A DNA stretch of 64,000 nt from contig NZ_CP126279.1 of the NCBI RefSeq assembly GCF_003234815.2, positions 2,604,001-2,668,000 of the forward strand, read 5' to 3'. The translations under genes were made by a program, and so were the position numbers. Shown here one piece after another: positions 10,077 through 25,261 of the stretch; within the stretch, counting starts at the first letter, position 1, and every line of letters starts with the position of its first letter. The notes under the pieces are model-generated. The model was not told where the DNA came from and searched no databases. It saw only the letters and a list, made by a program, of their open reading frames with translations. The stretch comes from Curtobacterium sp. MCBD17_035 (GTDB taxonomy: Bacteria > Actinomycetota > Actinomycetes > Actinomycetales > Microbacteriaceae).

Positions 10077-10161
10077 TCGACGCGCGCGGTCGCGGCGACA
10101 TGCCGGACGGGAGGGCCGGGGCGGGCTCGACGCGGGCCTCCCGGCCGTGATCATGGGTACG

Positions 10162-10626
10162 TCAGTACTCGCCCTTGATCACGAAGAACGAGCCGCGGAT
10201 CTCGCCCGCGAGCTTCGACCGCTGCCGGGCGAACTTGAACTTCGACGCGAGCTCATCGGGGACGTCCATGCCCTGCGAGAGCTTGAAGCCGACCGCCCGC
10301 TTGCCGCCGTCCTCGATGCTGTACATCACGTTGATCGCGAGGCCCGACTCGTAGAACACGTACGTCATCCGGAGGCCGTCGACCACGAAGTCGGTGGCCT
10401 CGAGCGGACGTGACGCGATCACGATGTCGCGCTCCTCAGCGAGGATCCGCGTCACCCGGTCGACCGCGTCGGGGGCCTCGTCCGCGGGCGACGTGACGAA
10501 CTCGTGGTCGTACTTGTTCTTGTAGTACCGGGCCTCGTTCGCGCGGAGGCCGGCGAGCGCCTCGGCCACCGGCGAGGACTCGAGACCGGCCGTGCTGACG
10601 TCCACGAAGTCGACGACGTTCGACAT
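10162..10626 (-). CDS. Uncharacterised 154-residue protein
   Basis: Start ATG at 10624-10626 with GAGGAGG upstream. An in-frame extension to 10845 exists but lacks a ribosome-binding site. The protein starts MSNVVDFVDVSTAGLES and contains ARYYKNKYDHEFVTSP and NVMYSIEDGGKRAVGFKLSQG, with no signal peptide or membrane segment. I do not recognise the family. Composition and codon use are like the host chromosome, so it looks native. It is separated from both neighbours by hairpin-rich spacers and is probably monocistronic. Confidence 0.8.
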   Translation of the reverse strand: MSNVVDFVDVSTAGLESSPVAEALAGLRANEARYYKNKYDHEFVTSPADEAPDAVDRVTRILAEERDIVIASRPLEATDFVVDGLRMTYVFYESGLAINVMYSIEDGGKRAVGFKLSQGMDVPDELASKFKFARQRSKLAGEIRGSFFVIKGEY

Positions 10627-10826
10627 GCGTTCCTCCTCGTTCGGGTGGGTGGGCACCACGGTAGTGCTGATCCACCAGGGTCGGGGATCATCCACAGACG
10701 CAGTAGGGCTCTCCGCGACCGACACCCCATGGACGTCCGGGTGTGGGCGGTGATCGAGCACCGCATCCCCGCGGTGATCATCGCGCTCGTGGACTGAGCG
10801 GCACCGCGGCGCCCACCCGGATGGTC

Positions 10827-11636: not shown

Positions 11637-11944
11637 TCACGACTCGTTGTTGCAGCGGAACTCCACCACGTCGCCGTCCTGCATGACGTAGTCCTTGCCC
11701 TCGATGCGGGCGACCCCACGGGACCGTGCCTCGGCGATCGACCCCGCGGAGATGAGGTCGTCGAACGAGATCACCTCGGCCTTGATGAAGCCCTTCTCGA
11801 AGTCGGTGTGGATGACGCCCGCGGCCTGCGGCGCCTTCCAGCCCTTGCCGATCGTCCACGCGCGGGACTCCTTGGGACCGGCGGTCAGGAACGTCTGCAG
11901 CCCGAGGGTGTCGAACCCGATGCGGGCGAGCTGGTCGAGCCCGA
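11637..11944 (-). pseudogene. Displaced 3' fragment of ychF
   Basis: About 290 bp match 24020-24308 with roughly nine mismatches by eye (about 97 percent). On the minus strand the frame encodes the C-terminal TGS part of YchF but ends EFRCNNES-stop instead of EFRFNN-stop. Similarity breaks off at about 11944, just after a shared 21-bp stretch ending GAGCCCG. It has no start codon and cannot make YchF. It is most likely the original 3' end of the chromosome's ychF, pushed away when an incoming element supplied a new one. Confidence 0.88.
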
Positions 11945-11948
11945 CAGG

Positions 11949-11983
11949 CTGGCCTGGTCGACACGAGGCGTCGACCAGGCCAG
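11949..11983 (-). terminator. Strong hairpin after the aldo/keto reductase gene
   Basis: CTGGCCTGGTCGAC (11949-11962) pairs perfectly with GTCGACCAGGCCAG (11970-11983), giving a 14-bp stem with a 7-nt loop. It lies 66 bp past the stop of the aldo/keto reductase gene and begins within 5 bp of the end of the ychF duplication, so it could equally be part of the element boundary. Confidence 0.6.
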
Positions 11984-12049
11984 AGCGGTTCTCCCCTCCG
12001 TTCGGCGCCCGAAGAGCTCGTCACGCACCACGTGTCATCGGGGAGCGTC

Positions 12050-12997
12050 TCAGGCAGTCGCGGCCGCGCGCGATCCCTGCACGCGCTCGGCGAACGCGTC
12101 GATGCGGGCGATGTCATCAGGCGTGAGGACGACGTCCGCCGCGGCCACGTTCTCCGCGACCCGGTTCGCATTGCGCGACCCCGGGATCGGGACGAGGTCG
12201 TCGCGCTTCGCGAGGATCCACGCGAGTGACAGCTGCGAGAGCGAGATGCCCTTGTCGTCCGCGATTGCCGACAGCCCCTGGGCGACGGCGACGTTCGCGT
12301 CGAAGTGCTCCGGTGCCCACCAGTCGAGCATGTGCCGGATGTCGTCGGACGGGTAGTCGGAGCGAGGGCGGACGGCTGCACTCAGGAAGCCGCGCGCCAG
12401 CGGCGAGTACGCGACCACACCGATGCCGAGCTCATCGACGACGGGCAAGAGCTCCTCGGACTCTCGGGCGAACACGGAGTACTCGGTCTGGAACGCCGAG
12501 ATCGGGTGGACGGCGTTCGCCCGGCGGAGCTGCTCGGCATCGGTGTTCGACAGCCCCAGGTAGCGGACCTTCCCAGCCTGGACGAACTCCTGCATCACGC
12601 CGACGACGTCCTCCACGGGCACCGCGGGGTCATGGACGTGCTGGTACAGGAGGTCGATCGAGTCGGTGCCGAGGTTCCGGAGGCTCGCCTCGACCACCTC
12701 GCGGATGTGCTCCGGGCGCGAGTCCGGCGTGTAGGCACCACGGGCGAAGCCGAACTTCGTCGCGATGGTGACCTCGTCGCGGATCGGAGCGAGGGCGGTT
12801 CCGAGCAGGCGTTCGCCGACGCCCCACCCGTACAACTCTGCGGTGTCGAAGTGCGTGACCCCGAGTTCATGCGCGTGCCGGATGGCGGCGGTCGATTCGG
12901 TGTCGTCGCTCGGCCCGTAGGCGAACGCCGTGCCCATCGCGCCGTAACCGACAGCACTGACGACCAGACCTTGGTCGCCGAGGATGCGCTGCTGCAT
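12050..12997 (-). CDS. Aldo/keto reductase
   Basis: 315 residues covering the whole (beta/alpha)8 barrel. The tetrad is Asp51, Tyr56 (FDTAELYG), Lys81 (TKFG) and His120 (YQHVHDP). The NADPH site near the C-terminus reads IPGSRNANRVAENV. The sequence resembles the AKR13 group, which reduces small aldehydes and ketones. The physiological substrate is unknown. It is divergent from a TetR regulator at 13097 with a 17-bp palindrome between them, so it is probably derepressed by a small molecule, perhaps a toxic carbonyl. It lies in the outer segment of the island. Confidence 0.92.
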   Translation of the reverse strand: MQQRILGDQGLVVSAVGYGAMGTAFAYGPSDDTESTAAIRHAHELGVTHFDTAELYGWGVGERLLGTALAPIRDEVTIATKFGFARGAYTPDSRPEHIREVVEASLRNLGTDSIDLLYQHVHDPAVPVEDVVGVMQEFVQAGKVRYLGLSNTDAEQLRRANAVHPISAFQTEYSVFARESEELLPVVDELGIGVVAYSPLARGFLSAAVRPRSDYPSDDIRHMLDWWAPEHFDANVAVAQGLSAIADDKGISLSQLSLAWILAKRDDLVPIPGSRNANRVAENVAAADVVLTPDDIARIDAFAERVQGSRAAATA

Positions 12998-13042
12998 GTG
13001 GTTCCTTCCGTGTGGAGAGCAAGAGGTCAGTGTACGCCCTTC

Positions 13043-13059
13043 GTGTCAGACTCTGACAC
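13043..13059. promoter_or_regulatory. Perfect 17-bp palindrome, probable TetR operator
   Basis: GTGTCAGACTCTGACAC is fully symmetric about a central C. It lies 38 bp before the TetR start codon and 46 bp before the aldo/keto reductase start codon, the usual place for a site controlling both divergent promoters. Confidence 0.75.
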
Positions 13060-13096
13060 TCTAGGCCCACGGTGTCAGCGGCAGTAGGATGACCCC

Positions 13097-13696
13097 GTGA
13101 GCGAGACGACGAGCCGGACGGGGTTGCGGGACATCACCCGCGACGCCGTGCGTTCTCGGATCGCCGCGGTGGCCGTCGCTCGGTTCGACGCGGAGGGTTT
13201 CGACAGCGTGACCGTCGAGCAGATCGCGGCCGAGGTCGGCATCTCCGCCCGGAGCTTCCACCGCTACTTCCCCGCGAAGGAGGACGCAGTGATCGGCGAT
13301 CCGGCTCGCCACCGAGACGACCTCGCCGACGCGCTCCGCGCCCGACCAGCGGGCGAACCTGTTTGGGACGCGCTCCGCGAAGCGTTCGTCGTGATGCTCG
13401 AACGCGGCGGCGCGGACTCCGACGCCGGCCGTCAATCGGTCCGCGTGATGCTGCGCACGCCGTCGCTCCGTGCCCGCAACCTCGAGAAGCACCTGTCCTG
13501 GGCCGAGGTACTCGTGCCGCTCACAGCTGAACGCATCGCCCGCGACGACGCTGACCTCCGCGCCCGGACGCTCGTGCACGCCGCGCTCAGCTGCTTCGAC
13601 GTGGCGATCAGCATCTGGGCCGTGGAGGACACCCCCGGCGTCCTCCCCGTCGATCTGCTTCGCCGGACCTTCGACACGCTCGACGCCAGCTCCTGA
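13097..13696 (+). CDS. TetR-family transcriptional regulator
   Basis: 199 residues from GTG at 13097 with AGGA upstream. The N-terminal DNA-binding domain is typical (AAVAVARFDAEGFDSVTVEQIAAEVGISARSFHRYFPAKEDAV). The C-terminal ligand domain is helical and not specific. By position it controls the aldo/keto reductase gene and itself through the palindrome at 13043-13059. Confidence 0.92.
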   Translation: MSETTSRTGLRDITRDAVRSRIAAVAVARFDAEGFDSVTVEQIAAEVGISARSFHRYFPAKEDAVIGDPARHRDDLADALRARPAGEPVWDALREAFVVMLERGGADSDAGRQSVRVMLRTPSLRARNLEKHLSWAEVLVPLTAERIARDDADLRARTLVHAALSCFDVAISIWAVEDTPGVLPVDLLRRTFDTLDASS

Positions 13697-14145
13697 CGCC
13701 GCTCACGGATCTGTGCTCATCCGATCCGCCGGTCGACGTCGGGGAGCTGCCAGGTCCGTGATCAGACGAGCCGGCTGATCGGCCTCGCTACCCGTGCGCG
13801 AAGGCCCGCCCCGCGTGACAGTCGCGGCGGTCGCGGTCGTCGAGCCGATCCAGGAGGACCGTGCTGTGCCTCCAGGACCGTTGTGCGCCAGCCTGTCGGG
13901 AATGTCCGCCCCACCCCGAGCCGCGGCGCAGAGACCGCGACGTCGACGAGTCCGCGAGGTCGTGGGACCGCCGGCAGGGTGATGCGGCCGCCGCGGCCGT
14001 CGGGGGGACCGAGAGCGAACCGTCGCGGTGACCTCGGGGTTGCAAAACCGAGGCAGATGATCCATCCTCCCGGACGAGGGCTGAGCGGAGCGGAGCGGAG
14101 ATCGCCACTTACACTGATCTGCACAACGTCAGAAGTGGAACCGTC
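13697..14145. other. 449-bp spacer inside the island, no gene seen
   Basis: Open frames here are antisense, Arg-rich and without ribosome-binding sites. A small (GCGGA)n run lies at about 14085-14099. I see nothing else that I can name. Confidence 0.4.
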
Positions 14146-14352
14146 ATGCTGCTCTTGTTCACCTGGCTCCTGGGGGCCGCCGTCGGTTTGTGGCTGATGT
14201 ACGTCGTCATTCGAGCCGCCGTGCTGAACGCCCTGAGCAGTCACTACAAGACCGTTCGGTGGTTCGAGGCGACCGGCGAATGGGACTACAACAAGAGCGG
14301 CTCGCTCGCACCGCAGCCCATCCCCGCCTCCGAGCACAAACCCGTCGAGTAG
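14146..14352 (+). CDS. Small single-pass membrane protein
   Basis: 68 residues, MLLLFTWLLGAAVGLWLMYVV as one membrane helix, then a short cytosolic tail ending ASEHKPVE. The hydrophobic N-terminus followed by a polar tail is more ordered than a random frame would give. A weak AGAAGTGG precedes the ATG. It lies in the outer island segment, and its function is unknown. Confidence 0.55.
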   Translation: MLLLFTWLLGAAVGLWLMYVVIRAAVLNALSSHYKTVRWFEATGEWDYNKSGSLAPQPIPASEHKPVE

Positions 14353-15026
14353 CCCCCCTCGGGGCATTGGCTGGGCGAGCGGTCCGTCAGGTCCCACCGC
14401 AGTCATCGGGCCGGAGCGCCGTCACGCCTCCGCCACCAGTACGACGGACGCCACCAGGACACGACGTCGGGGTCGCGAGGCCGTGTCCCCTCCGGCTCAG
14501 TCTCGAACGCGTCGGTCAGCGGTTCGATCGGCCGCCAGCGACCCAGCACACGAACGGGTAGAACGGCGTGGGGCTCGTGTCACGGCGCATGACTAGTTGT
14601 TGAACCGGAACGTCGGACGGGCAAATGGGGACATCGATCCACCGTAGCAGGCTTGATTCCGTGGGCAAGTAGGCGCGGTCGGCGCGCTCTGCGTCGGCCG
14701 GTGTTAGGAGCTACGACGGACTGAATCCGGACTAGATGTGGCCTACTCGGCCACCGACACGACCAGGCAGAACACAGTCGTTGTACTGGGACAAACTGAA
14801 TCGACGCAGCAGACCAGTGGCCCAGCTGACTTCTCAACCCCCGCCGAGGCACAAGCGGTCCGCTCCCCAACTCAGCTTCGAAACGGCAACACTCGTGCCT
14901 CGTCAGTAACGCTGTTGCGACAACCCCGCTTATCGCGCCAGCGACTCTGATTCTTGGCGGGTTACCACTCAGCGTGACTCAAGGTGCTCGCTTCCGCCCA
15001 AGGGAACCGACTGCCGAAGCTGTCGC
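14353..15026. other. 674-bp spacer holding the inner element boundary
   Basis: No gene is evident. The ychF-like remnant at 14593-14610 lies here. To the right of it the sequence becomes visibly less GC-rich, which fits the edge of a separately acquired element. Confidence 0.45.
14593..14611 (-). repeat. Attachment-site-like remnant of the ychF end
   Basis: Read on the minus strand the bases encode F-R-F-N-N-stop, the exact C-terminus of YchF at 24009-24026. At DNA level 15 of 17 bases match (AGTTGTTGAACCGGAAC against AGTTGTTAAAGCGGAAC). It is the expected far end (attR) of an element whose integrase lies beside the intact ychF end. Confidence 0.6.
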
Positions 15027-15833
15027 CTATTCCGACCGCTCAGCACCCTGCCTCCATGATCCTGGCTTAGCGGTCGCCTTTAGGTAGTAAACCGTGCCAC
15101 CTCCCAGGCCGCCGCCAGAAGCGATCGTCTCACCACCCTCGCGGTCACGAAGCTTTGGGAGGATGGTTTGAACCCTTGATTGAGACGCACTAAGCACATA
15201 TTCGACCTCCGAACGCCATCTCGTTCCATTCAGGCTCGAGTACTCCACCACTATCAGAACAGGGAGGCCGCTCGAGCCGAGCGCGCTCAGCGCCGTTAGC
15301 GCTGATCCTCCAAAAAAGGACAGAGCAACGTCGGTAGGCTCATGGTCCCCTGTAGCGAGCGGCAGAGCAATTGGCACCTCGCCCGACTTCACGTTTTCAG
15401 CCTGGTTGAGGGCCTTAACGGCGACGTTGAGCGCTGGGTCCCGGGTTTGATTCGACAGCGAGACACTTATCACGATCGCAAGCTGCAGCTGGTCACCCAA
15501 CCATTCGGACCTTTCGATCCGCGCATCTCTTTCAGCCACGTGACCGACCACATAGGGCCGCAAACTCAGACGCTCGTTTTGAGCAACTAGTTCACGATGG
15601 TCGAGGTCCGTCTTCCGCTCGTTCACGTCGAAGACCAGGACCACCGCCACAGCTGCAACCGCTACTCCCGAGAAAAGCGCAGAACCCGCACCGAACATGT
15701 CCCCGACTTGCCCGAACTTGGCAGATTCGCCGTCGGGCACGAACCTTGCGAGAACCCAGACTAGACCCCATACCGCGATCCAAGCGATCAGGGCAGCGAC
15801 GGACGCCCAAACCACCGCAGTGCGCATCTTCAT
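15027..15833 (-). CDS. Two-TM membrane protein coupled to the DUF262 gene
   Basis: 268 residues. Two membrane helices lie at about residues 8-30 (VVWASVAALIAWIAVWGLVWVLA) and 46-68, with FGQVGDMFGAGSALFSG between them. A charged segment follows (DVNERKTDLDHRELVAQNERLS), then a roughly 180-residue beta-rich cytosolic domain. The GDMFGxxxALFSG pattern resembles the start of predicted two-TM effectors and putative AbiC-like abortive-infection proteins. This is recollection, not a search. Its ATG overlaps the DUF262 stop by 4 nt, so the pair is translated together. It would be the membrane effector or sensor of a two-gene system. Confidence 0.85.
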   Translation of the reverse strand: MKMRTAVVWASVAALIAWIAVWGLVWVLARFVPDGESAKFGQVGDMFGAGSALFSGVAVAAVAVVLVFDVNERKTDLDHRELVAQNERLSLRPYVVGHVAERDARIERSEWLGDQLQLAIVISVSLSNQTRDPALNVAVKALNQAENVKSGEVPIALPLATGDHEPTDVALSFFGGSALTALSALGSSGLPVLIVVEYSSLNGTRWRSEVEYVLSASQSRVQTILPKLRDREGGETIASGGGLGGGTVYYLKATAKPGSWRQGAERSE

Positions 15834-17368
15834 GACAGCCTCGCCAACAGTCTCTCCGCAAGCAGATTCGCCCGCTCTTGAACATCGTCATCATCGCCGA
15901 GCGAATAAATGCCTCTCGGAAAGCCCTGGCTTCTTAACGCGCCCTCATGGAGGATCTCCGACGGCGCCTGACCAAGAGTTCGTCCCTTCCGTATCAGGCG
16001 AACCGACTCCTTCCCGATGAATACGAGACCAGCGACTGGCACGTCACCATCGGTTAACGCCTGCCCGCGCCCAAGAGCCGTGGAAGAGACTTCAACGACC
16101 GACTCCGTTAGTGGCTCGTCGGTAACAGGATCGCGATCCTCGTGCAGCACGGCGAGGCCGCGTAAGCCAAGCCGAAGGATCTTATTGCGTCGCGATTCGT
16201 CGAGCAGAGCAGCACCTAGGGCGGGAACGACAACCTCGGCCGAAGGGGCAAGAGGCTCGCCGTCGCGAGTGTCAGTCAGGACTTGGGTATTCGCTCCCTG
16301 CGCATACGTTTGGAGAGCGACTGAGGACCAATACCATCGTGTGATGGCAGCTCTCGATACTCCGGCATCGAGGAAATACGCTACGCCGAGAACCATTGCA
16401 TCAGTAGGCACTCCGCCCGGTCGCACACCAAATTCAGACGACATAAAGTCCAACGCGCTCGCGTACGACGAAACCGCGCGGTTCCACATTTGCGAGACGG
16501 AGTCCGGCGGGATGTTCAGCACATCTCGCTGGCGCACACCGGTAACACGTCTGGACGCGGGGCGCGATTTAGTCTTTGCATCAATATCGCGCTGCCACAG
16601 GGCAACGAGCTTCAACACCTCTAACCCATTGACCTCAAAGCGCTCAAGCAGTTCGGAATTCGCCTTCGCAAACTCCCACTCATCTCGCAGATTGAAACCC
16701 GACGGAAAGAGGACAGCTACCATTAAGTCAAAGGAGTTCAAGCGCACTCCCGTGCGATTCAGCGTCTCAAAGATCCGAGTCAGAGCCTCGAGACTAATTG
16801 CCTGTTCCATTACAATTGCAGGTAAGGTGTACGATGCGCGGTTATCTTCGTCTGTGAAGACTTGGCGGGTTTCGAGCATCCAGGCAGACATCCGTGCATC
16901 AACGACTTGAATCGCCGCGTCGAACTTCGCCGGATCCAAGAGCGACTCGAACGCGACCCGTCTCGACACTGCCGCCTCGAATGAGAAAGACTTGCGGGGC
17001 GCCCACTTGAGGCTTGGGTCGCCATCCTCGGTCGTATCGTTGAAATCGGCGAAGTACACCGTTTCGCTCGTCCCGGTTAGCGCGTGGTAGAGCGCAGTTA
17101 CGCGTTGCTGCCCATCGAGGAGATAAAGCTCCACCTCGTCCTCGTAGACCTCGGGTGCACCGTCGATCGGCCGGATCCGGAACGGCTGGGGTCCTTCGAG
17201 CACCAGCAGCGAACCGACTGGCCAGCCGTTTAGGACACTATCGAGCAACTCGATCACCCGACCCGGTTCCCAGACGAAGGGCCGCTGAAATTCCGGTAGC
17301 GCTAGCAAACCGCTCCGCGCCAGGCGGAGGAGCTCAGTGACGCTGAAGTCCCGCGATCTATGTTGCAT
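15830..17368 (-). CDS. DUF262 (GmrS-like) protein
   Basis: 512 residues. The N-terminal DUF262 domain (ParB/sulfiredoxin-like nucleotide-binding fold) is unmistakable: LPEFQRPFVW at 24-33, LLDGQQRVTALYHAL at 83-97 and IFETLNRTGVRLNSFDLMVAV at 199-219. In GmrSD relatives a C-terminal DUF1524 HNH nuclease follows. Here the C-terminus keeps a PSEIL motif at 469-473, like the PSEYL of those nucleases, but I see no HHIFP-type histidines, so the nuclease looks lost or degenerate. It is coupled to a two-TM protein. One leucine codon, at 16055-16057, is TTA. It probably senses infection through a nucleotide or modified DNA, but this is inference. Confidence 0.92.
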   Translation of the reverse strand: MQHRSRDFSVTELLRLARSGLLALPEFQRPFVWEPGRVIELLDSVLNGWPVGSLLVLEGPQPFRIRPIDGAPEVYEDEVELYLLDGQQRVTALYHALTGTSETVYFADFNDTTEDGDPSLKWAPRKSFSFEAAVSRRVAFESLLDPAKFDAAIQVVDARMSAWMLETRQVFTDEDNRASYTLPAIVMEQAISLEALTRIFETLNRTGVRLNSFDLMVAVLFPSGFNLRDEWEFAKANSELLERFEVNGLEVLKLVALWQRDIDAKTKSRPASRRVTGVRQRDVLNIPPDSVSQMWNRAVSSYASALDFMSSEFGVRPGGVPTDAMVLGVAYFLDAGVSRAAITRWYWSSVALQTYAQGANTQVLTDTRDGEPLAPSAEVVVPALGAALLDESRRNKILRLGLRGLAVLHEDRDPVTDEPLTESVVEVSSTALGRGQALTDGDVPVAGLVFIGKESVRLIRKGRTLGQAPSEILHEGALRSQGFPRGIYSLGDDDDVQERANLLAERLLARLS

Positions 17369-17685
17369 TGTTTGCGCACTCCCTCATCAGCCGCTCCATC
17401 GCGGCGACACTATCGCATTTGACTACTGACAAGCAGCACGGAGCGGGGTGCGCGACCGGTAGGACGCTAGGCACGAAGCGATACTCGGTACGACTGCGGC
17501 ACCTGGCAGCGAGGCGGAAGGATGTGCTCACGGCAGTCAACCAGCGACCGCTGCAACGGGGGCGTCGTTCCGAATGACCGGCTCCCGCGCGCCCCGACAA
17601 GGGCGCGCAGAACGGAGGGACGGTCGAGGCCCGGACCTCGGCAGCGACGCCACGACGATACGGTCTCACTCAGGAATTCCGACCG
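17369..17685. other. 317-bp spacer between two defence-like genes
   Basis: No convincing gene. A hairpin with arms 17587-17594 (GCGCGCCC) and 17601-17608 (GGGCGCGC) lies about 80 bp past the SIR2-STAND stop and may terminate that transcript. The remaining 220 bp should hold the promoter of the DUF262 operon, but I see no clear -35/-10 pair. Confidence 0.45.
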
Positions 17686-20103
17686 TCACAGAGATGCCTG
17701 CACGACCGCATTAGTTGCGATGTAGCGCTGGACCGTGCCCCACGCCTCCTGGACATCGAGCTGACGCCGATGAATACCTGCACCCATTCGACCGAAATAC
17801 AAGAGGTCGTCCCGCAGGGCCCTTTGCTCCTCGTTGCCCAACCGCTGCTCCTGCAGCCAACGAAGACCGAAGTTGAGAAAAATTGCAAACGTATGCGGTG
17901 AGTTACTGGCAGTGTTTCGCATGATCGGTTTGAGCAGCCCGAATGCCTCTTCAACAAGCGAATGAGCGTCCGGACCCTGCAAGTCGTTCAGCGCCTTCTT
18001 GAGCAGGAGCAATGCCCAAGCCGTGTCGATTTGAACGTCCTCAGGGGCGAGAACGCGTGCTTGACGCAGGAAGTTCTCGGCAAGGACGAGGTCTCCAAAG
18101 TCCGTTTCAAAGCTTCCCCGCTGGAGCCAGAAGTGCGGGTCATCCGCAAGCCACTGCTCAGCCGTACCGTAGATGCGCTGCACCACGGAGTTCTCGCCCA
18201 CGAAGCTCTTGAGATTGTTGTGGCTTAGCAGACGAATCAGAATCCGCCCGTAGCGCGTCCGACGAACACTGGCGCGATCATAGTGTCCGGCAACGAGGAA
18301 TAGTAGGTCCTCGATCCAGTGCTCCAGCTGCCCCTCACTTCGGAAGTAGTCGACTGCCGACTCTGCAACCACTCGGTGGCGTGTGCGGTAGCGAGAATGT
18401 TCCGCGACGAGAAGATGCGCGGTTTCGAGCCGTCTCAGCGCAACCAGGGCCTCATTCGGTTCATAGTTACGGCCCGCCGCGTACAGCACGTCCTGACGAG
18501 ACAGGGGTCGATTATCCGCCCATGCAGCAGTGCAGACCGCGCCGTAGAGTGCAACTTCGGCGCCTTGAAGCGACCGGCATTCGCTCGCCACACGCTCCTG
18601 AAAGCGTTCGCCTGACGTGGCCTCGATTAGGGTGACTAGCAACTGCCTATCAGCGTGCTTCGTGATTCGTTCGATGCGCTGTTGCACGCTCAGGCCAAGG
18701 AGAGCGCCTAGTCGGTGGCCACGACTAAGTTGCCCCAGCAAGGCCGTAGCGTCGCTATCCGTGAGGCGGGCCTGGTCGAGTGTTGCATCAACTCTTAGCC
18801 GATCTTCGTACCGCAACTGCACATAGCGCCCACTTCGTGCCGCGACTACGGTGACCAAGGAGTCAGACTCTTGGGACAAGCTCCTGAGCAACTCGGGAGC
18901 CTGGTCGGCGAACCGGTCTACATCATCGATGAAAAGATAGTCCGCCTTCCGATTGACGGCTTCACGACGGATCTGCGCCATCGGGACTTCGCTCTCCCGG
19001 CCGAGCCACAGGACAGTGTTTCCGCGAGCCGCAAACGTTGCAGCAGCCTTCATCAGGGAAGTTGTCTTTCCGGACCCCGCGCTTCCCGTCACCGCGATAG
19101 CACCGCCAGTCACGGCGTGAATCTGAGCTGTCAGCGCGTCATCAAACTCGAAATTGGCCGCGTACCCGTTGACTACGTCTGCCCACTGTGGCGTAGTGCC
19201 CAGCAGATAGTTTGGACTACCGGCCGGAGCAGCACGAACCGCTTCTGACACATCGATGAGTGCGGCTTCAGCTCGAACCACCTCCTCTGCCCTCTGAGCA
19301 GCAACGAGGCCCGGCGCAAATGGCGCGATACTGGTCTCGAAGAAGTTCTCTTCGGTCTCCGCGATGTGCACAAAGTTCAGCCTGGCCAGCGTCGCCTTGC
19401 GCCCGCGGTCCAGCTTCGGCGAGACAAGCCATGAGCGCGGTCGTAGTTCATTGTTGTTCCCACGCTCGCCGCGGAGTTGCAGGTAGTGCCAAAGAGGAGG
19501 CTCGTCGAGTACCGAACCAACTACAACCACGGGGCGCGTGGTTAGGTCTGTGACAAACTCTTGATACCAGGTATCAGTTCGCGCCGTTCGGTCCGCGTAG
19601 TCCCATTGGCTGAAAGTGAGGTCAGGGAAATCACCAAGGCGACCGTTCACGTGCACCACGGCGAGCTTATCCCCATCCACGACCCCAGGGCTGGTATTCA
19701 ACGCAGAAATGATCTGCATAGCTCGCCCCCCGGATTGGTCGCGGATTACTTCGTCGCCGTCGTCAATGTTGAGCGTGTAAATGCGATGCCAAGGAAGCGA
19801 ATACCAGGTCTGATACCGAGCCGGAACGAGTCCGGGATCGATCTTGAAAAGTCGATCAAGTTGGTCACGCAGGAGTGTCGGCGAAGTGCGCAGCGCCTCT
19901 GCGTATACCAAGCTGAGGGGCGTTTCAGCCTCGAACGGTTCATCCCTGAACGCAATTGGCCAGATACTTTCCGCGAGCTCCGGACCGAGCGGCAGCGGCT
20001 CGCCATCATGGTCGGTCAGTCCTCTTGAAAACCCCGCGCCCGTGAGCAACACCGCCTGGCCTCGTGCGATCGCGTTCACGATCGCCGCACCATGCTCCGT
20101 CAT
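17686..20103 (-). CDS. SIR2-STAND-like protein with C-terminal helical repeats
   Basis: 805 residues if started at the ATG at 20101-20103, which has AAGGGGG 7 nt upstream. An ATG 15 nt earlier has none. Residues 1-270 are SIR2-like: LLTGAGFSRG (21-26 core), YTLNIDD (Asn112, Asp114) and VVHVNGRLGD (His151 as the HxxG base). Residues 330-480 are a P-loop NTPase with Walker A GSAGSGKTT (Lys346) and Walker B YLFIDDVD (Asp393-394). The remainder is helical and TPR-like (AEQWLADDPHFWLQRGSFETDFG). SIR2-STAND proteins such as Avs5 detect phage proteins and destroy NAD+. By architecture this one likely does so too. What it senses is unknown. Confidence 0.9.
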   Translation of the reverse strand: MTEHGAAIVNAIARGQAVLLTGAGFSRGLTDHDGEPLPLGPELAESIWPIAFRDEPFEAETPLSLVYAEALRTSPTLLRDQLDRLFKIDPGLVPARYQTWYSLPWHRIYTLNIDDGDEVIRDQSGGRAMQIISALNTSPGVVDGDKLAVVHVNGRLGDFPDLTFSQWDYADRTARTDTWYQEFVTDLTTRPVVVVGSVLDEPPLWHYLQLRGERGNNNELRPRSWLVSPKLDRGRKATLARLNFVHIAETEENFFETSIAPFAPGLVAAQRAEEVVRAEAALIDVSEAVRAAPAGSPNYLLGTTPQWADVVNGYAANFEFDDALTAQIHAVTGGAIAVTGSAGSGKTTSLMKAAATFAARGNTVLWLGRESEVPMAQIRREAVNRKADYLFIDDVDRFADQAPELLRSLSQESDSLVTVVAARSGRYVQLRYEDRLRVDATLDQARLTDSDATALLGQLSRGHRLGALLGLSVQQRIERITKHADRQLLVTLIEATSGERFQERVASECRSLQGAEVALYGAVCTAAWADNRPLSRQDVLYAAGRNYEPNEALVALRRLETAHLLVAEHSRYRTRHRVVAESAVDYFRSEGQLEHWIEDLLFLVAGHYDRASVRRTRYGRILIRLLSHNNLKSFVGENSVVQRIYGTAEQWLADDPHFWLQRGSFETDFGDLVLAENFLRQARVLAPEDVQIDTAWALLLLKKALNDLQGPDAHSLVEEAFGLLKPIMRNTASNSPHTFAIFLNFGLRWLQEQRLGNEEQRALRDDLLYFGRMGAGIHRRQLDVQEAWGTVQRYIATNAVVQASL

Positions 20104-20317
20104 GATCACCCCCTTCATCGTTTCGCTGATGCTAAGCGCAGCCCGGAGCTACGGGGAGGATCACGACCCCCAGACCCGCGCGCACCGTGAGATGCAGCAC
20201 GTACCGATCACTCAGAGCGACCGGGGGGCACCCCTAGCCTCCGCACCTCGGCAGCACTGCAGATCACCGCGACGTGCCTTGCCAGGGTCGTCACACCCTC
20301 GACCTAGACTGTCGCCC
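20104..20317. promoter_or_regulatory. Divergent promoter region, SIR2-STAND and methyltransferase
   Basis: 214 bp separate the two divergent start codons. TAGACT at 20305-20310 ends only 7 bp before the methyltransferase ATG, with TTGCCA 20 bp further up. That spacing suggests a leaderless message, common in actinobacteria. No obvious control-protein box is seen. Confidence 0.35.
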
Positions 20318-21256
20318 ATGACCCTGATCCCTCGCCCGGACCCTCGGGTCAGCACCGCCACGTCGACCGTGCACCACGGCGACGCGTACGACCTCCTGCC
20401 GGAGATCGAGGCCAACTCGATCGACTTGATCCTCACGTCCCCGCCCTACTGGGGGCTTCGCGACTACGGCATGGAGCACGACAACGGGGTGCTCGACGCG
20501 TGGATCGCTGAGGGCAACAGCGCCGACGACATTCCCCCGTATGACTGGTACCGAACTAACGGTGGTGTGCTCGGCCTCGAACCGCGTCCGGAGTGGTTCG
20601 TCGGGCATCTTGTCGAGATCTTCCAGCGCGGTGCTCATGCGCTCAAGGCGTCAGGCAGCATGTGGATCAACATCGGCGACACCTACTTCGCGCGTTGGGC
20701 GAGCATCCGTAACGACGGACGCCAGGGCCTCGGCGGCAATCCACGAGCGCGACGGCGCGCGCCGATGGGCGGATTCCGACAGGAGAAGCAGCTCCTGATG
20801 ATTCCCGCCCGCTTCGCGATCGCCATGCAGGACAAGCGGTGGATCTTGCGCAATGACGTGATCTGGCACAAGCCGAACGTCCCGCCCCGCCCCGAGAAGG
20901 ATCGACTCAGGCTGTCCCACGAGCACTTTTTCCACTTCGTCAAGCGACCGACCTCGGGCCGTGCCAAGTACTTCTACGACTTGGATGCCGTCGAGGACGG
21001 CGCACGAGACGTAATCACGACCAACGTGCGCGCGGGACAGGACGGGCACTCCGCAACCTTCCCCCGCGACCTCATCACGCCGCGGATCCTCAGCTCGTGC
21101 CCGGAAGGTGGGACCGTGCTCGACCCGTTCTGCGGCACAGGTCGCTCTCTCACCGTGGCCACGGAGAACGGGCGCAACGCGATCGGCTTCGACCTGAACG
21201 AGAACTTCTCCGCGGTGGCTCGCGCCAACGCTCAAGGGAGCTCCATCGATGGCTAA
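20318..21256 (+). CDS. Site-specific DNA methyltransferase (amino-methylating, permuted)
   Basis: 312 residues from ATG at 20318. The catalytic motif IV TSPPYWG is at 40-46 and the AdoMet-binding DPFCGTGRS lies near residue 275, so the order is permuted as in beta-class N4-cytosine / N6-adenine methyltransferases. DLILTSPPYWGLRDYG and FFHFVKRP are typical of this class. A longer upstream extension overlaps the divergent SIR2 gene and is rejected. Its last 8 nt overlap the restriction gene, so it is expressed with it and should protect the host from that enzyme. Recognition sequence unknown. Confidence 0.92.
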   Translation: MTLIPRPDPRVSTATSTVHHGDAYDLLPEIEANSIDLILTSPPYWGLRDYGMEHDNGVLDAWIAEGNSADDIPPYDWYRTNGGVLGLEPRPEWFVGHLVEIFQRGAHALKASGSMWINIGDTYFARWASIRNDGRQGLGGNPRARRRAPMGGFRQEKQLLMIPARFAIAMQDKRWILRNDVIWHKPNVPPRPEKDRLRLSHEHFFHFVKRPTSGRAKYFYDLDAVEDGARDVITTNVRAGQDGHSATFPRDLITPRILSSCPEGGTVLDPFCGTGRSLTVATENGRNAIGFDLNENFSAVARANAQGSSIDG

Positions 21257-22382
21257 CGTGCAACGCGAGGCAGGCAACGTTCTCGCCGAGTGGTTCGGAC
21301 ACCGGATCTACCCGGTCGCAGCGGACGATGACGAGGCGCGCATGGCGCAGGATTCCCAGACATGCCCGTTCCTGACACAGCTCACCGGTCGGACCTGTGT
21401 CTGCGTGAAGAGTGCGAAGAAGGTCGGCGGGTCTAACAACGGAGTCTCGCGCGGCGTGTGCACCATCAGCAGCACGAGCAACGGCATTCGCCAGGACTGG
21501 CTCGTTTGCCCGTTCCGCGCGCTTGACGTCGACTTGCTGGCGGACGCCGCAAGGCGCTTGTTTGGGGCCCGGACCGACCAGGAGGTCGCTCTCGTGCCGG
21601 TGACGTCTCTGGTCGAGGCCGATGCCGTCGACTCTCTCAAGGAAACGATCCGAGCTGGCGGCATCGGCGTCGCGTACTTCCAGAGCAAGCTGGGAGGTGA
21701 GATCAGCGTCGCGTCGACCGGTCGATCGCCCGAGCTGAACTTCGACGCGACGATGGTGAAGCTGTCCCTCGACGCGAACGGGCTCCTCGACGTGGATCGG
21801 TATGCCATCTTCGAGATCCAGACGATGGACTTCCACGGCACCTACAAGCGAGCCGTCGACAACCTGTCGAACGCAAGCCACCTGCACCGAGAGGATTTCG
21901 CCAGCACAATCAACCAGCACCCCGAGTGGTTAGCCGAGGGGGTCGAGGGTCCGAACATCTCGAACGCGTTCAAACGAACGTTCTACCAAATGATGTTCAA
22001 GTTCCAGATCGGTGCTCATGGCCGCGCAGCTGGATGCGTTCTCGCTATCCCTGAGGCCGTCTGGGACAGCTGGCAGCGGTTCCTTGGAAAGCCCGATTTG
22101 ATCCCTGTCGACGACGGCACCTGGCGGCTGCTCGGCTCCCCTTCGGACGAGCACCCCCCAGCTTGGATCTACGTCTTCGATCTGGACGCTGAGTCCGGTG
22201 TCACTCCGAATCCCGTCTGCCTCAAGAAAGTCATTGGTACGACGGCCGCGGCTCTGTCGCACTTCACGCTTGATGTCGCGCCCGAGGCTGCCCTTGAGGC
22301 TGGTGGGAGCGTGGATCGGTTGCTCGAGACGATCCGGATGCGCCTGGCACGATTCTTGCCCGAGGTAGCAGCGACGGCTTGA
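21249..22382 (+). CDS. NotI-family restriction endonuclease
   Basis: 377 residues. Two features point to the NotI group: a Cys cluster (Cys39, Cys50, Cys52, Cys71, Cys87, of which four would bind the metal as in the Fe-Cys4 site of NotI), and the PD-type active site FDATMVK ... FEIQTMD (Asp166, Glu189, Gln191), equivalent to Asp160, Glu182 and Gln184 of NotI. NotI and EagI cut GC-rich sites (GCGGCCGC, CGGCCG), so a GC-rich target is likely in this high-GC host. It is translated from an 8-nt overlap with the methyltransferase gene and is terminated by the hairpin at 22396. No frameshift or missing catalytic residue is visible. Confidence 0.85.
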   Translation: MANVQREAGNVLAEWFGHRIYPVAADDDEARMAQDSQTCPFLTQLTGRTCVCVKSAKKVGGSNNGVSRGVCTISSTSNGIRQDWLVCPFRALDVDLLADAARRLFGARTDQEVALVPVTSLVEADAVDSLKETIRAGGIGVAYFQSKLGGEISVASTGRSPELNFDATMVKLSLDANGLLDVDRYAIFEIQTMDFHGTYKRAVDNLSNASHLHREDFASTINQHPEWLAEGVEGPNISNAFKRTFYQMMFKFQIGAHGRAAGCVLAIPEAVWDSWQRFLGKPDLIPVDDGTWRLLGSPSDEHPPAWIYVFDLDAESGVTPNPVCLKKVIGTTAAALSHFTLDVAPEAALEAGGSVDRLLETIRMRLARFLPEVAATA

Positions 22383-22395
22383 GCACGGATGGAGG

Positions 22396-22426
22396 GGGGC
22401 CCGAGCGGGTCATGCGCTCGGGCCCC
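22396..22426. terminator. Two-way terminator after the restriction gene
   Basis: GGGGCCCGAGCG (22396-22407) and CGCTCGGGCCCC (22415-22426) form a perfect 12-bp stem with a 7-nt loop, between the convergent stops at 22382 and 22430. Confidence 0.75.
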
Positions 22427-22429
22427 GCT

Positions 22430-23011
22430 TCATGCGGCGATCTGCCTCCGCTCGCGATGTGCTCCGTCCTGTCGGGAGCAAAGGGCATTTGGAGTGCCCG
22501 GGTCAATCGGTTCTGCGCAGACGACGCATGACACAGGTATCGCGACCGTCGGCCAGGTGAGCCTGGCTGTTTCTTCCTCCACCTCCCTTGTCCTGGCCTG
22601 GCCTTTCCTGTCCTCTCCTTGGTGGTGACCGATCACGTGATCGATCACGTGTGTTGCCGTTCCGGAGGTCCGACGCTTCCGAGCGACATCGCGCGCCTTC
22701 TGGCTGCTCTCCCTGCTCTTGCGTCGCTTGTCGCTCAGCTGCGCAGCGGTCGTCTGGGTTTCGTCCCAGCTAGTAACCCGGTAGCCGATGCCGTCGACCC
22801 CCCAAAGGCCGGCCAGGACGAGTTCCTGGACCGCGCTTGCCTCCGCCGCGACGGGATGCAACCAGCGGAGCTGTCCGGGCGCGATGTAGCCATCCGACTG
22901 CTGCTCGTTGCTGAGCATGAGGCCGCACGTGAAGATCCGCCAGGACGTGTCTGACAGCCCGTCCATGCGCGGGTCGTGGAGCCAGCGGGACGGCAGACGA
23001 GAATCGACCAC
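22430..23011 (-). CDS. Phage-type protein with C-terminal Cys motif, possible replication factor
   Basis: 193 residues from GTG at 23009-23011. The beginning (MVDSRLPSRWLHDPRMDGLS, then TSWRIFTCGLMLSNEQQSDGYI) resembles winged-helix proteins of actinophages and integrated plasmids that act in replication. This is recollection only. A lysine/arginine-rich linker follows, and the C-terminus has CVVCAEP ... ALCSRQDGAHRERR, which could bind zinc. It is the only clear phage-type gene left beside the integrase. Codon use is mixed and it carries an internal GATCACGTGATC repeat. Confidence 0.65.
   Translation of the reverse strand: MVDSRLPSRWLHDPRMDGLSDTSWRIFTCGLMLSNEQQSDGYIAPGQLRWLHPVAAEASAVQELVLAGLWGVDGIGYRVTSWDETQTTAAQLSDKRRKSRESSQKARDVARKRRTSGTATHVIDHVIGHHQGEDRKGQARTREVEEETARLTWPTVAIPVSCVVCAEPIDPGTPNALCSRQDGAHRERRQIAA
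22631..22653. repeat. Tandem GATCACGTG palindromes
   Basis: The perfect 12-bp palindrome GATCACGTGATC at 22631-22642 is followed directly by GATCACGTGTG. It encodes HVIDHVIGHH in the minus-strand gene but may also be a protein-binding site such as an iteron remnant. Confidence 0.6.
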
Positions 23012-23199
23012 CTACCGGCCTCCCAGTGTCGGATCTACCCCGCGTTGCGTGAGCGCTCGGTTGATCATGCCGGTCCGCGTCGGGTGGAGCGGTCGATCCG
23101 GTGGGCAGCTTCGAGCAGACGGACAGCGACGCGGCGAGCGCCGTCGGTCGTCAGCTCGGGCATAACCGAGAGGCCCATGTTGAGGCCTGAATCAAGACG

Positions 23200-23986
23200 A
23201 TGAGTCTCACTCTCGCTCCGAGCACCATCCGAACCCGTGTCAACAACGTGCGAGCAGCCCTACGCGCCGCGGTGAGGGACAAGGTGCTCGCCGCCGATCC
23301 GTCCAACGGAGTCACACTCCCGCGCGCGCGGAAGGCTGAACACGCGATGCGCATCCCGACTCCTGCGACCGTGGGTATCGTCATGGCCGCGGCAGAGGAA
23401 TGGTTCCGACCTTTCATCGCGCTCTGCGCCTTTGCCGGGCTACGCCTCGGGGAAGCCGCGGCAGCGCAGTTCTCGGATATCGACTTCCTAAGACGCCAGC
23501 TGCACGTTCAGCGACAGGTACAGCGGGCCACCGGCGGGGAGGTTCGAATCACACCCCCGAAGTACGGGTCGGAACGGGTCGTTCACCTTCCCGACGAGCT
23601 GGTGACGATGCTCGCTCAGCATGCGAGCCTCGTCGGCACGCACGGCGACGAGCAGTGGATGTTCCTCGGCGACCACGGGAATCCCCCCTCACCAGAACAC
23701 CATCCACTACTGGTGGACCAAGACGCTCCCTGCCGCCGATGCCGAGCCGACGCGCCTGCACGACTTGCGGCACTTCTATGCCTCGGGACTCATCGCAGCG
23801 GGATGCGACGTTGGGACAGTTCAGCGAGCCCTCGGGCACGCGAAGGCGACAACCACGTTGCAGACCTACACACACCTCTGGCCGACGGCCGAGGACCGGA
23901 CCCGGACAGCAGCCGCAGGCATCATGACCGCCGTTTTCGCGGCTCCCGCGGACTCAATCCGGACTGGGACTACCGAAACCGCGTGA
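23200..23986 (+). pseudogene. Tyrosine recombinase (integrase), truncated and frameshifted
   Basis: The catalytic domain is recognisable: AGLRLGEAAA with the first Arg, then in another frame LHDLRHFYASG (HxxR), ALGHAKATTTLQTYTHLW with the His and the Tyr nucleophile. The frame changes at a run of six C at 23683-23688. With five C the product reads GDHGNPPHQNTIHYWW without interruption. The arm-binding N-terminus is also missing: an in-frame TGA stands at 23188-23190, and the first residues (LAPSTIRTRVNNVRAALRAAV) already belong to the core-binding domain. It ends 22 bp before the ychF stop, as expected for an integrase beside its attachment site. The C-run could be a sequencing error, but the missing N-terminus cannot. 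Confidence 0.88.
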
Positions 23987-24008
23987 ATCCCAGTGTCTGA
24001 CTGGGGGG

Positions 24009-25082
24009 TCAGTTGTTAAAGCGGAACTCCACCACGTCGCCGTCCTGCATCACGTAGTCCTTGCCCTCGATCCGGGCGACGCCGCGGGCCCGAGCCTCGG
24101 CGATCGACCCCGCGGAGATGAGGTCGTCGAACGAGATCACCTCGGCCTTGATGAAGCCCTTCTCGAAGTCGGTGTGGATGACGCCCGCGGCCTGCGGCGC
24201 CTTCCAGCCCTTGCCGATCGTCCAGGCGCGGGACTCCTTGGGACCGGCGGTCAGGAACGTCTGTAGCCCGAGGGTGTCGAACCCGATACGGGCGAGCTGG
24301 TCGAGCCCGGACTCCGGCTGCCCGGTGGCCTCGAGGAGCTCCTGCGCCTCGTCCGGCTCGAGGTCGATGAGCTCGGACTCGATCTTGGCGTCGAGGAACA
24401 CGGCCTGCGCGGGGGCGACGAGCGCGGCGAGCTCCGCCTTGCGGGCGTCGTCGGTGAGCACGGCCTCGTCGACGTTGAACACGAAGATGAACGGCTTGGC
24501 CGACAGGAGCCCGAGCTCCTTGATCGGGGCCAGGTCGATGGACGTGGCGGACAGGAGCGTGCCCTGCTCGAGCGCGGCACGGGCCTCCCGAGCGGTCTCG
24601 AGGACCGCGGGCTCCGCCTGCTTGAGCTTCACCGTCTTCTCGTACCGCGGCAGGGCACGGTCGATGGTCTCGATGTCGGCGAGGATGAGCTCGGTGTTGA
24701 TGACCTCGAGGTCGTCGCGCGGCGAGACCTGGCCGGACACGTGCACGACGTCGTCGTCGGCGAAGCCGCGGACGACCTGCGCGATGGCGTCGGCCTCGCG
24801 GATGTTCGCGAGGAACTTGTTGCCGAGACCCTCGCCCTCGCTCGCGCCCTTGACGATGCCCGCGATGTCGACGAACGACACGGGAGCCGGCAGGACCTTC
24901 TCCGAGTGGAAGAGGTCCGCGAGCTGCTGCAGGCGCGGGTCCGGCAGGTTGACGACGCCGACGTTCGGCTCGATGGTCGCGAACGGGTAGTTCGCCGCCA
25001 GGACCTGGTTCTTCGTCAGGGCGTTGAACAGGGTCGACTTGCCGACGTTCGGGAGTCCGACGATCGCGATGGTGAGTGCCAC
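24009..25082 (-). CDS. ychF: Ribosome-binding ATPase YchF
   Basis: 357 residues, the usual family length, from GTG at 25080-25082 (VALTIAIVGLPNVGKST, equal to the normal MALTIAIVG start). Motifs: G1 GLPNVGKST, G3 DIAGIVKGASEGEGLGNKF, the ATP-type G4 NVDE in place of NKxD, and a C-terminal TGS domain ending DGDVVEFRFNN. YchF hydrolyses ATP, binds ribosomes and is linked to stress responses and translation fidelity. Its 3' end is the insertion target of the island, yet the protein is complete, because the element supplies the last part. A displaced copy of the end lies at 11637-11944. Confidence 0.96.
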   Translation of the reverse strand: MALTIAIVGLPNVGKSTLFNALTKNQVLAANYPFATIEPNVGVVNLPDPRLQQLADLFHSEKVLPAPVSFVDIAGIVKGASEGEGLGNKFLANIREADAIAQVVRGFADDDVVHVSGQVSPRDDLEVINTELILADIETIDRALPRYEKTVKLKQAEPAVLETAREARAALEQGTLLSATSIDLAPIKELGLLSAKPFIFVFNVDEAVLTDDARKAELAALVAPAQAVFLDAKIESELIDLEPDEAQELLEATGQPESGLDQLARIGFDTLGLQTFLTAGPKESRAWTIGKGWKAPQAAGVIHTDFEKGFIKAEVISFDDLISAGSIAEARARGVARIEGKDYVMQDGDVVEFRFNN

Positions 25083-25098
25083 GACGGACAAGCCTAAC

Positions 25099-25195
25099 GG
25101 CGGCGGCCGGGAGGAACGGCGCGGGTCCGCCCCGCACTTCCGGTCCGGCGGCGGCCGGGAGGGACGGTGCGGGCCCGCCCCGCACCTCCCGGTCC
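25099..25195. repeat. Tandem repeat of 48 and 49 bp
   Basis: Two copies start GGCGGCGGCCGGGAGG at 25099 and 25147 and end TCCGGTCC or CCCGGTCC. Both carry the CGGGAGG ... CCTCCCG-like arms of the dispersed palindrome family, and a third partial copy follows. They lie upstream of ychF and of the exonuclease gene. Confidence 0.75.
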
Positions 25196-25261
25196 GGCGG
25201 CGGGCGACGGACGCGGCGTGTGACACGAGGGGATGTCGGAGCGTCGTGCGAGCATGGCGAC

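Follow-up and report, generated by a model that had tools for sequence, protein, structure and literature searches.

A divergent actinobacterial SIR2-STAND protein, most likely a distant relative of Avs5, encoded in a genomic island of Curtobacterium

Avs5 proteins, which combine a SIR2 effector and a STAND NTPase in one chain, are known experimentally from Proteobacteria. Among other defence proteins with a SIR2 domain, Thoeris ThsA consists of SIR2 and SLOG domains in about 480 aa and acts with a partner, ThsB, and neither ThsA nor DSR2 is known to have a P-loop NTPase. Activation of Avs5 has been attributed to filaments, in work cited by PMC12700824. The accepted Avs5 clades, and the Avs5 proteins of Pseudomonas aeruginosa, share 18-21% mutual identity, and the NTPase of the latter has been described as nSTAND3 (PMC12931631). 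The same study reported that NG, a variant of the sirtuin HG motif, is found in Avs5 proteins about as often as HG itself, that PaAvs5-1 is more efficient with Asn than with His at the position concerned, where Ala or Gln abolishes defence, and that the protein additionally requires N110 and D112. The NG-type PaAvs5-1 hydrolyses NAD+, and NG is a working variant (PMC12931631).

The window, a stretch of 64,000 nucleotides from the chromosome of Curtobacterium sp. MCBD17_035, carries a gene for a SIR2-STAND protein which we consider quite likely to be a one-gene Avs5-like antiphage receptor, sensing a phage protein and destroying NAD+. Architecture, homology, motifs and genomic context were computed for this protein, while the steps of its activity are inferred. 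The SIR2-STAND, Avs5-like kind is already known, and what is new is the divergent actinobacterial lineage. It is missed by the standard defence-finding models and would extend the one-protein NAD-depleting design to Actinobacteria.

The open reading frame lies uninterrupted on the minus strand. Read from its first ATG it covers 17686..20118 (810 aa), and read from the second, at 20103, it covers 17686..20103, stop codon included (805 aa). Directly upstream of this second ATG the sequence is AAGGGGGTGATC, and direct reading of the minus strand at 20115-20101 gives AAGGGGGTG-ATC-ATG, a good, strong ribosome-binding site in which the Shine-Dalgarno-like AAGGGGGTG (20107..20115) stands 3 bases ahead of the start codon. 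Because this stretch precedes the ATG at 20103, the 805-aa form is probably the true protein, and residue numbers given here count from that codon. A preliminary description of the locus had proposed a single 805-aa chain ending at 20103; the intact frame and the ribosome-binding site bear this out, with the strand corrected to minus.

A SIR2 NADase-type effector domain occupies residues 1-255 (19339..20103, minus strand). Its Pfam score is sub-threshold (SIR2_2, 14 bits against a cut-off of 24.5), and judged by sequence profiles and the predicted fold the domain is nevertheless real. In phmmer searches of the PDB the SIR2-like entry 9jap was the best solved relative (1.9e-6), profiles built from the window protein and its relatives match the SIR2 domains of KomC, ThsA and DSR2, and the predicted domain aligns with SIR2 NADases at Z 18-20 across about 245 residues, the end of the domain (211-280) being modelled in part with low confidence. 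Three aligned motifs define the pocket. TGAGFS (21-26; 20026..20043, minus strand) carries the NAD-binding GAGxS motif as GAGFS at 22-26, TLNIDD (110-115; 19759..19776, minus strand) corresponds to TTNxD and has the TxNxD form in TLNID at 110-114, with N112 at the catalytic Asn position and D114 following (motif roles from PMC12931631), and HVNG (151-154; 19642..19653, minus strand) is the NG variant of the HG motif (PMC12931631). All three had been named in the preliminary description, together with Walker A and B motifs, and all five are present in the chain. It had also held that lack of the catalytic His and Asn would refute its reading of the protein as a SIR2-STAND-like immune sensor, and here the outcome is divided: the Asn is in place as N112, whereas the position of the sirtuin catalytic His is taken in the alignment by Asn153, followed by Gly154, the His of HVNG lying two residues earlier, so that HVNG does not represent the usual catalytic His-Gly pair.

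The NG variant is carried by most of the collected EfAvs5 group, others in the group having HG, and it occurs in PaAvs5 as well. Since NG works in Avs5, and since N112 and D114 correspond to N110 and D112, the residues needed by PaAvs5-1, the SIR2 pocket looks competent by analogy. It is also non-canonical, with Leu as the second residue of the TTNxD motif and NG in place of HG, and the protein offers a second natural test of this odd active site. The same deviations, NG for HG and TLNIDD for TTNYD, lend some weight to a different reading, in which the receptor is the same and the SIR2 domain works without bulk NAD+ hydrolysis, by producing a signal such as an ADP-ribose derivative, modifying a target or binding NAD+ as a switch. 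We regard this as unlikely, given that GAGFS, N and D are all retained in the window protein and in its orthologue (see below), and that NG is active, even preferred, in the NAD+-hydrolysing PaAvs5-1 (PMC12931631).

Downstream of the SIR2 domain, residues 297-443 form a STAND P-loop NTPase (18775..19215, minus strand), delimited with the help of the model and assigned by Pfam to nSTAND_NTPase5 (PF25199; 86 bits, the cut-off being 34; 2.1e-24; residues 303-432 when counted in the 810-aa form). Sequence and alignment place Walker A, GSAGSGKT, at 340-347 (19063..19086, minus strand) and Walker B, LFIDD within a wider LFIDDVD, at 390-394 (18922..18936, minus strand). A helical part then leads, in the model, to a winged-helix-like segment at residues 515-576 (18376..18561, minus strand) with three helices (515-530, 536-546 and 549-559) and a hairpin (strands 565-568 and 571-574), an assignment made from secondary structure, without separate superposition of the segment, at a pLDDT of about 68-86 over 515-574. 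The segment ends with R575-H576, and RH is invariant across the nSTAND5 relatives; by analogy, it may hold the position of an MHD-type motif. The remaining residues, 577-805 (17689..18375, minus strand; 577-803 in the model), form alpha-alpha, TPR-like repeats according to models and alignment, with pLDDT mostly 76-96 from residue 621 onward, and they are presumed to be the sensor of the phage ligand. They include DPHFWLQ (655-661; 18121-18141, minus strand), a motif shared with the EfAvs5 group. The earlier proposal of a P-loop NTPase and a helical-repeat C-terminus is thus backed by PF25199 and the model, and a segment of the winged-helix kind, whose absence after the NTPase had been put forward as grounds for rejecting the reading as a SIR2-STAND-like immune sensor, was found at 515-574.

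A SIR2 effector under a non-STAND sensor, as in defence of the DSR2 or ThsA type, would be a further explanation, and taken by itself the SIR2 domain fits DSR2, ThsA and KomC as well as it fits Avs5 (Z 18-20). The likeness to these three proteins lies in the SIR2 NADase fold; they lack a STAND NTPase and have other sensors. DSR2 passes from SIR2 to a helical C-terminus with no P-loop NTPase between, whereas the window protein has a complete one in mid-chain, and, as against ThsA, it has both NTPase and repeats. No TIR domain was found among the scanned genes of the island. With full-length fold matches that put Avs5 first and DSR2 far behind, this explanation is very improbable.

Full-length homology to a proven Avs5 is supported by sequence, profile and fold. 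BLASTP gave a single alignment, covering residues 12-686, to an EfAvs5-like plasmid protein (E 9e-12, 20% identity), the same level of identity as between accepted Avs5 clades, and profile-profile comparison with the EfAvs5 group extended over 683 columns (E 2.3e-35). Among solved structures, a fold search with an AlphaFold2 model built from 17 sequences (mean pLDDT 77.5, pTM 0.54) placed EfAvs5 first (9jap, entitled 'Helical structure of EfAvs5(SIR2-STAND)'; 1.1e-24) and the AVAST5 filament second (9nc9; 6.5e-16), with human SAMD9 (2.2e-14) and DSR2 (1.7e-7) as further matches; SAMD9 has also been reported as a structural relative of PaAvs5 (PMC12931631). VIA-align to EfAvs5 yielded Z 21.2 over 729 residues with a whole-chain rmsd of 23 A, which is large because the arrangement of the domains differs, though the domains themselves match. 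As the 17-sequence alignment held EfAvs5-like proteins, the likeness of this model to 9jap is not fully independent. For an earlier model, built from 5 sequences with no EfAvs5 sequence among them (pLDDT 49.5), 9jap was the sole match below 0.001; this model was too poor for judging domains and was replaced by the 17-sequence one.

The likeness to EfAvs5 and its group, found on plasmids and prophages of Enterobacteriaceae, extends over the whole chain, in the order SIR2, STAND NTPase and helical repeats, and includes GAGFS, H-x-N-G and PHFW[LV]Q in the repeats. The differences are the identity of about 20%, the NTPase, which is nSTAND_NTPase5 (86 bits) and not nSTAND3, the KSS found in the EfAvs5 group where the window protein has the RH winged-helix motif, and the separate clade. 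The 769-aa SIR2-STAND protein of the AVAST5 filament (9nah/9nc9) resembles the window protein in its whole-chain fold, second only to EfAvs5, and, by profile, in its SIR2 domain, and differs in that no significant full-length sequence match was found. SIR2-nSTAND5-TPR proteins (from a Klebsiella plasmid, L004, a prophage, L055, and L007, L009 and L057) share SIR2, nSTAND_NTPase5, repeats and the RH motif, with a profile-profile E of 8.3e-39; they mostly have HG rather than NG, carry longer TPR arrays and form a clade of their own. Within that group, the Klebsiella plasmid protein lies at L004 6903-10037, and the prophage protein (L055 4983-8090) has a cold-shock domain (PF00313) at its end; such a partner is unusual and suggestive of binding to RNA or single strands.

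Models of Avs5 in the narrow sense gave a different result. The window protein scored 14.1 bits with the NCBIfam Avs5 model NF041814, against a cut-off of 1000, had no match below 0.1 to the PADLOC Avs5 models, and reached 12.7 bits with nSTAND3 (PF20720), the NTPase type of P. aeruginosa Avs5, against a cut-off of 27.2; EfAvs5 itself is near-equal on nSTAND3 and nSTAND_NTPase5 (31.3 and 29.1 bits). As it fits neither these models nor the nSTAND3 type, we do not class the protein as a narrow-sense Avs5. The Avs5-type architecture claimed for it in the preliminary description stands on full-length homology and fold, with the limit that the NCBIfam and PADLOC models do not recognise the protein as Avs5. 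To conclude from the NCBIfam model that the protein is no Avs5 was rejected, as the model also misses the EfAvs5-like L065: none of the EfAvs5-like L065, L060, L061 and L062 exceeds its cut-off, and L065, L060 and L061 give no match whatever. The model likewise found nothing in 396 actinobacterial genomes, where the controls were silent too, so this is no evidence of absence. Avs5 will be undercounted in any survey based on this model. Sequence and model comparisons together suggest that the window protein most likely belongs to an Avs5-like sister lineage, as a divergent actinobacterial SIR2-STAND protein and a distant cousin of known Avs5. Among the sequences collected, a Providencia plasmid (L064 1-4967, NZ_CP012904.1) carries an ISEcp1-blaOXA-181 unit with a SIR2-family ORF on one side and, on the other, an ORF that matches the NTPase/sensor part of EfAvs5, which looks like an Avs5-like gene interrupted by the insertion.

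By analogy, the window protein very probably works like Avs5. In the resting cell the repeats would hold the NTPase closed; binding of a phage protein to the repeats would permit a nucleotide-dependent opening that leads to dimers and filaments, as in Avs5, whereupon the SIR2 sites of the assembled proteins would hydrolyse NAD+. The infected cell would then stop, and phage would not be made.

The gene is rare and patchy. Apart from the window protein there is a single close relative, so that, among 400 genomes from the family, two carry the gene, its own genome included, and it was found in none of 59 genomes of the same genus; no close relatives were found in phages or in viral contigs. An alignment of six relatives was too divergent for profile searches of genome contigs, for which a pair of sequences worked, and matches in two actinobacterial genomes were rejected as the P-loops of GspE and RadA. 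The close relative, an orthologue from another genus (G908), is intact, shows 49% identity over 798 residues and retains the catalytic and nucleotide-binding motifs, including GAGFS, N and D. A more remote one (G1323; L080 1330-3804, L082 1855-4326), from a different family within the order, keeps GAGSS, TLNVDD and HLHG, and its Walker A (L080) is without its Lys.

Five Micromonospora proteins (L035-L038, L006) share 26-28% identity over the body. They have kept the body made up of STAND and sensor parts, but GAGxS (now TSGIE) and TNxD (now CTGT/CTGS) are lost, and at the N-terminus they have gained a region of about 300 residues that matches nothing in Pfam. A VGDLT-like stretch in that region is perhaps a trace of a worn phosphoesterase. 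Because these proteins have lost the NADase motifs and kept the rest, the SIR2 fold can evidently serve without those motifs within the clade, which favours the reading without bulk NAD+ hydrolysis considered above. In a tree without the EcAvs5 and PaAvs5 clades, three groups are supported: the window protein with G908 and the Micromonospora proteins (100/99), EfAvs5 (100/99) and SIR2-nSTAND5-TPR (100/100); the window protein therefore falls outside the EfAvs5 clade. We tentatively entertain, as a possibility that is rather doubtful, that the window protein, its orthologue and the Micromonospora proteins constitute a receptor family of Actinobacteria that is separate from Avs5, with a conserved STAND-plus-sensor body and exchangeable outputs. 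The output of the window protein would then be a SIR2 NADase of the NG type, and that of the Micromonospora proteins a SIR2 fold without NAD motifs together with the N-terminal addition.

The window protein and its relatives occur in three separate defence neighbourhoods, in three separate lineages, and a defence role is therefore likely; the nSTAND_NTPase5 family is thereby tied to antiphage defence. In L041 8095-15350 the G908 orthologue lies directly downstream, on the same strand, of a QatABCD-like defence system, with matches to QatA (2.9e-47), QatC (4.8e-58) and QatD (7.1e-31) and a QatB-sized ORF between, and the G1323 relative adjoins an XhoI-type restriction-modification system and a large DISARM/BrxH-like helicase. 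In the window, the gene is flanked on one side by a DUF262/GmrSD_N protein of 512 aa (15830..17368, minus strand; ORF list and Pfam), whose gene overlaps by 4 bp a membrane-type ORF of 268 aa (15027-15833). On the other side, its start codon 214 bp from that of the SIR2-STAND gene, family matches identify a divergent type II N6/N4 DNA methyltransferase (20318..21256, plus strand), overlapped by 8 bp by a 377-aa ORF (21249..22382, plus strand) which had no family match in profile scans and is the probable restriction partner, by its putative role. The DUF262 pair and restriction-modification pair noted earlier are thus recovered through family matches, except that the restriction partner itself has none.

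These genes lie in an integrated island of about 12.4 kb (11947..24311) whose centre has a GC content of 60-65%, against about 72% in the surrounding chromosome. A 298-bp copy of the ychF 3' end, 96% identical, stands at 11646-11943 as a direct repeat of 24012-24309, complete ychF extends over 24009-25226, and, of eight genomes examined from the same genus, four have the gene that here lies beyond the copy (10159-10639) within 0.8-1.9 kb after the ychF 3' end. From this copy and gene order it follows that about 12.4 kb was inserted into the 3' end of ychF, which is re-supplied by the island.

The island integrase, next to ychF (23176-24000), has lost part of its 5' end and carries a frameshift that leaves the two conserved halves in separate ORFs (23200-24000 and 23621-23986), and the island is for this reason probably fixed, having lost the ability to move unaided. 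Such immobility would suit a protein without a part in phage defence, either an NADase for internal stress or plasmid exclusion or a decaying remnant, and this we consider distinctly improbable, with an intact reading frame, all motifs present, and an orthologue intact in another genus and in another defence neighbourhood. The island's site of integration carries other cargo in genomes of the same genus. At the same place G040 (L051) has an intact 370-aa relative of the integrase, with 84% DNA identity over 1935 bp including ychF, and a different cargo, of the AAA ATPase, AbiEii-like kind, while in G001 (L050) a DUF262 gene lies downstream of ychF. The ychF 3' end looks like a defence-island hotspot of the genus, whose members exchange defence cargo at this site.
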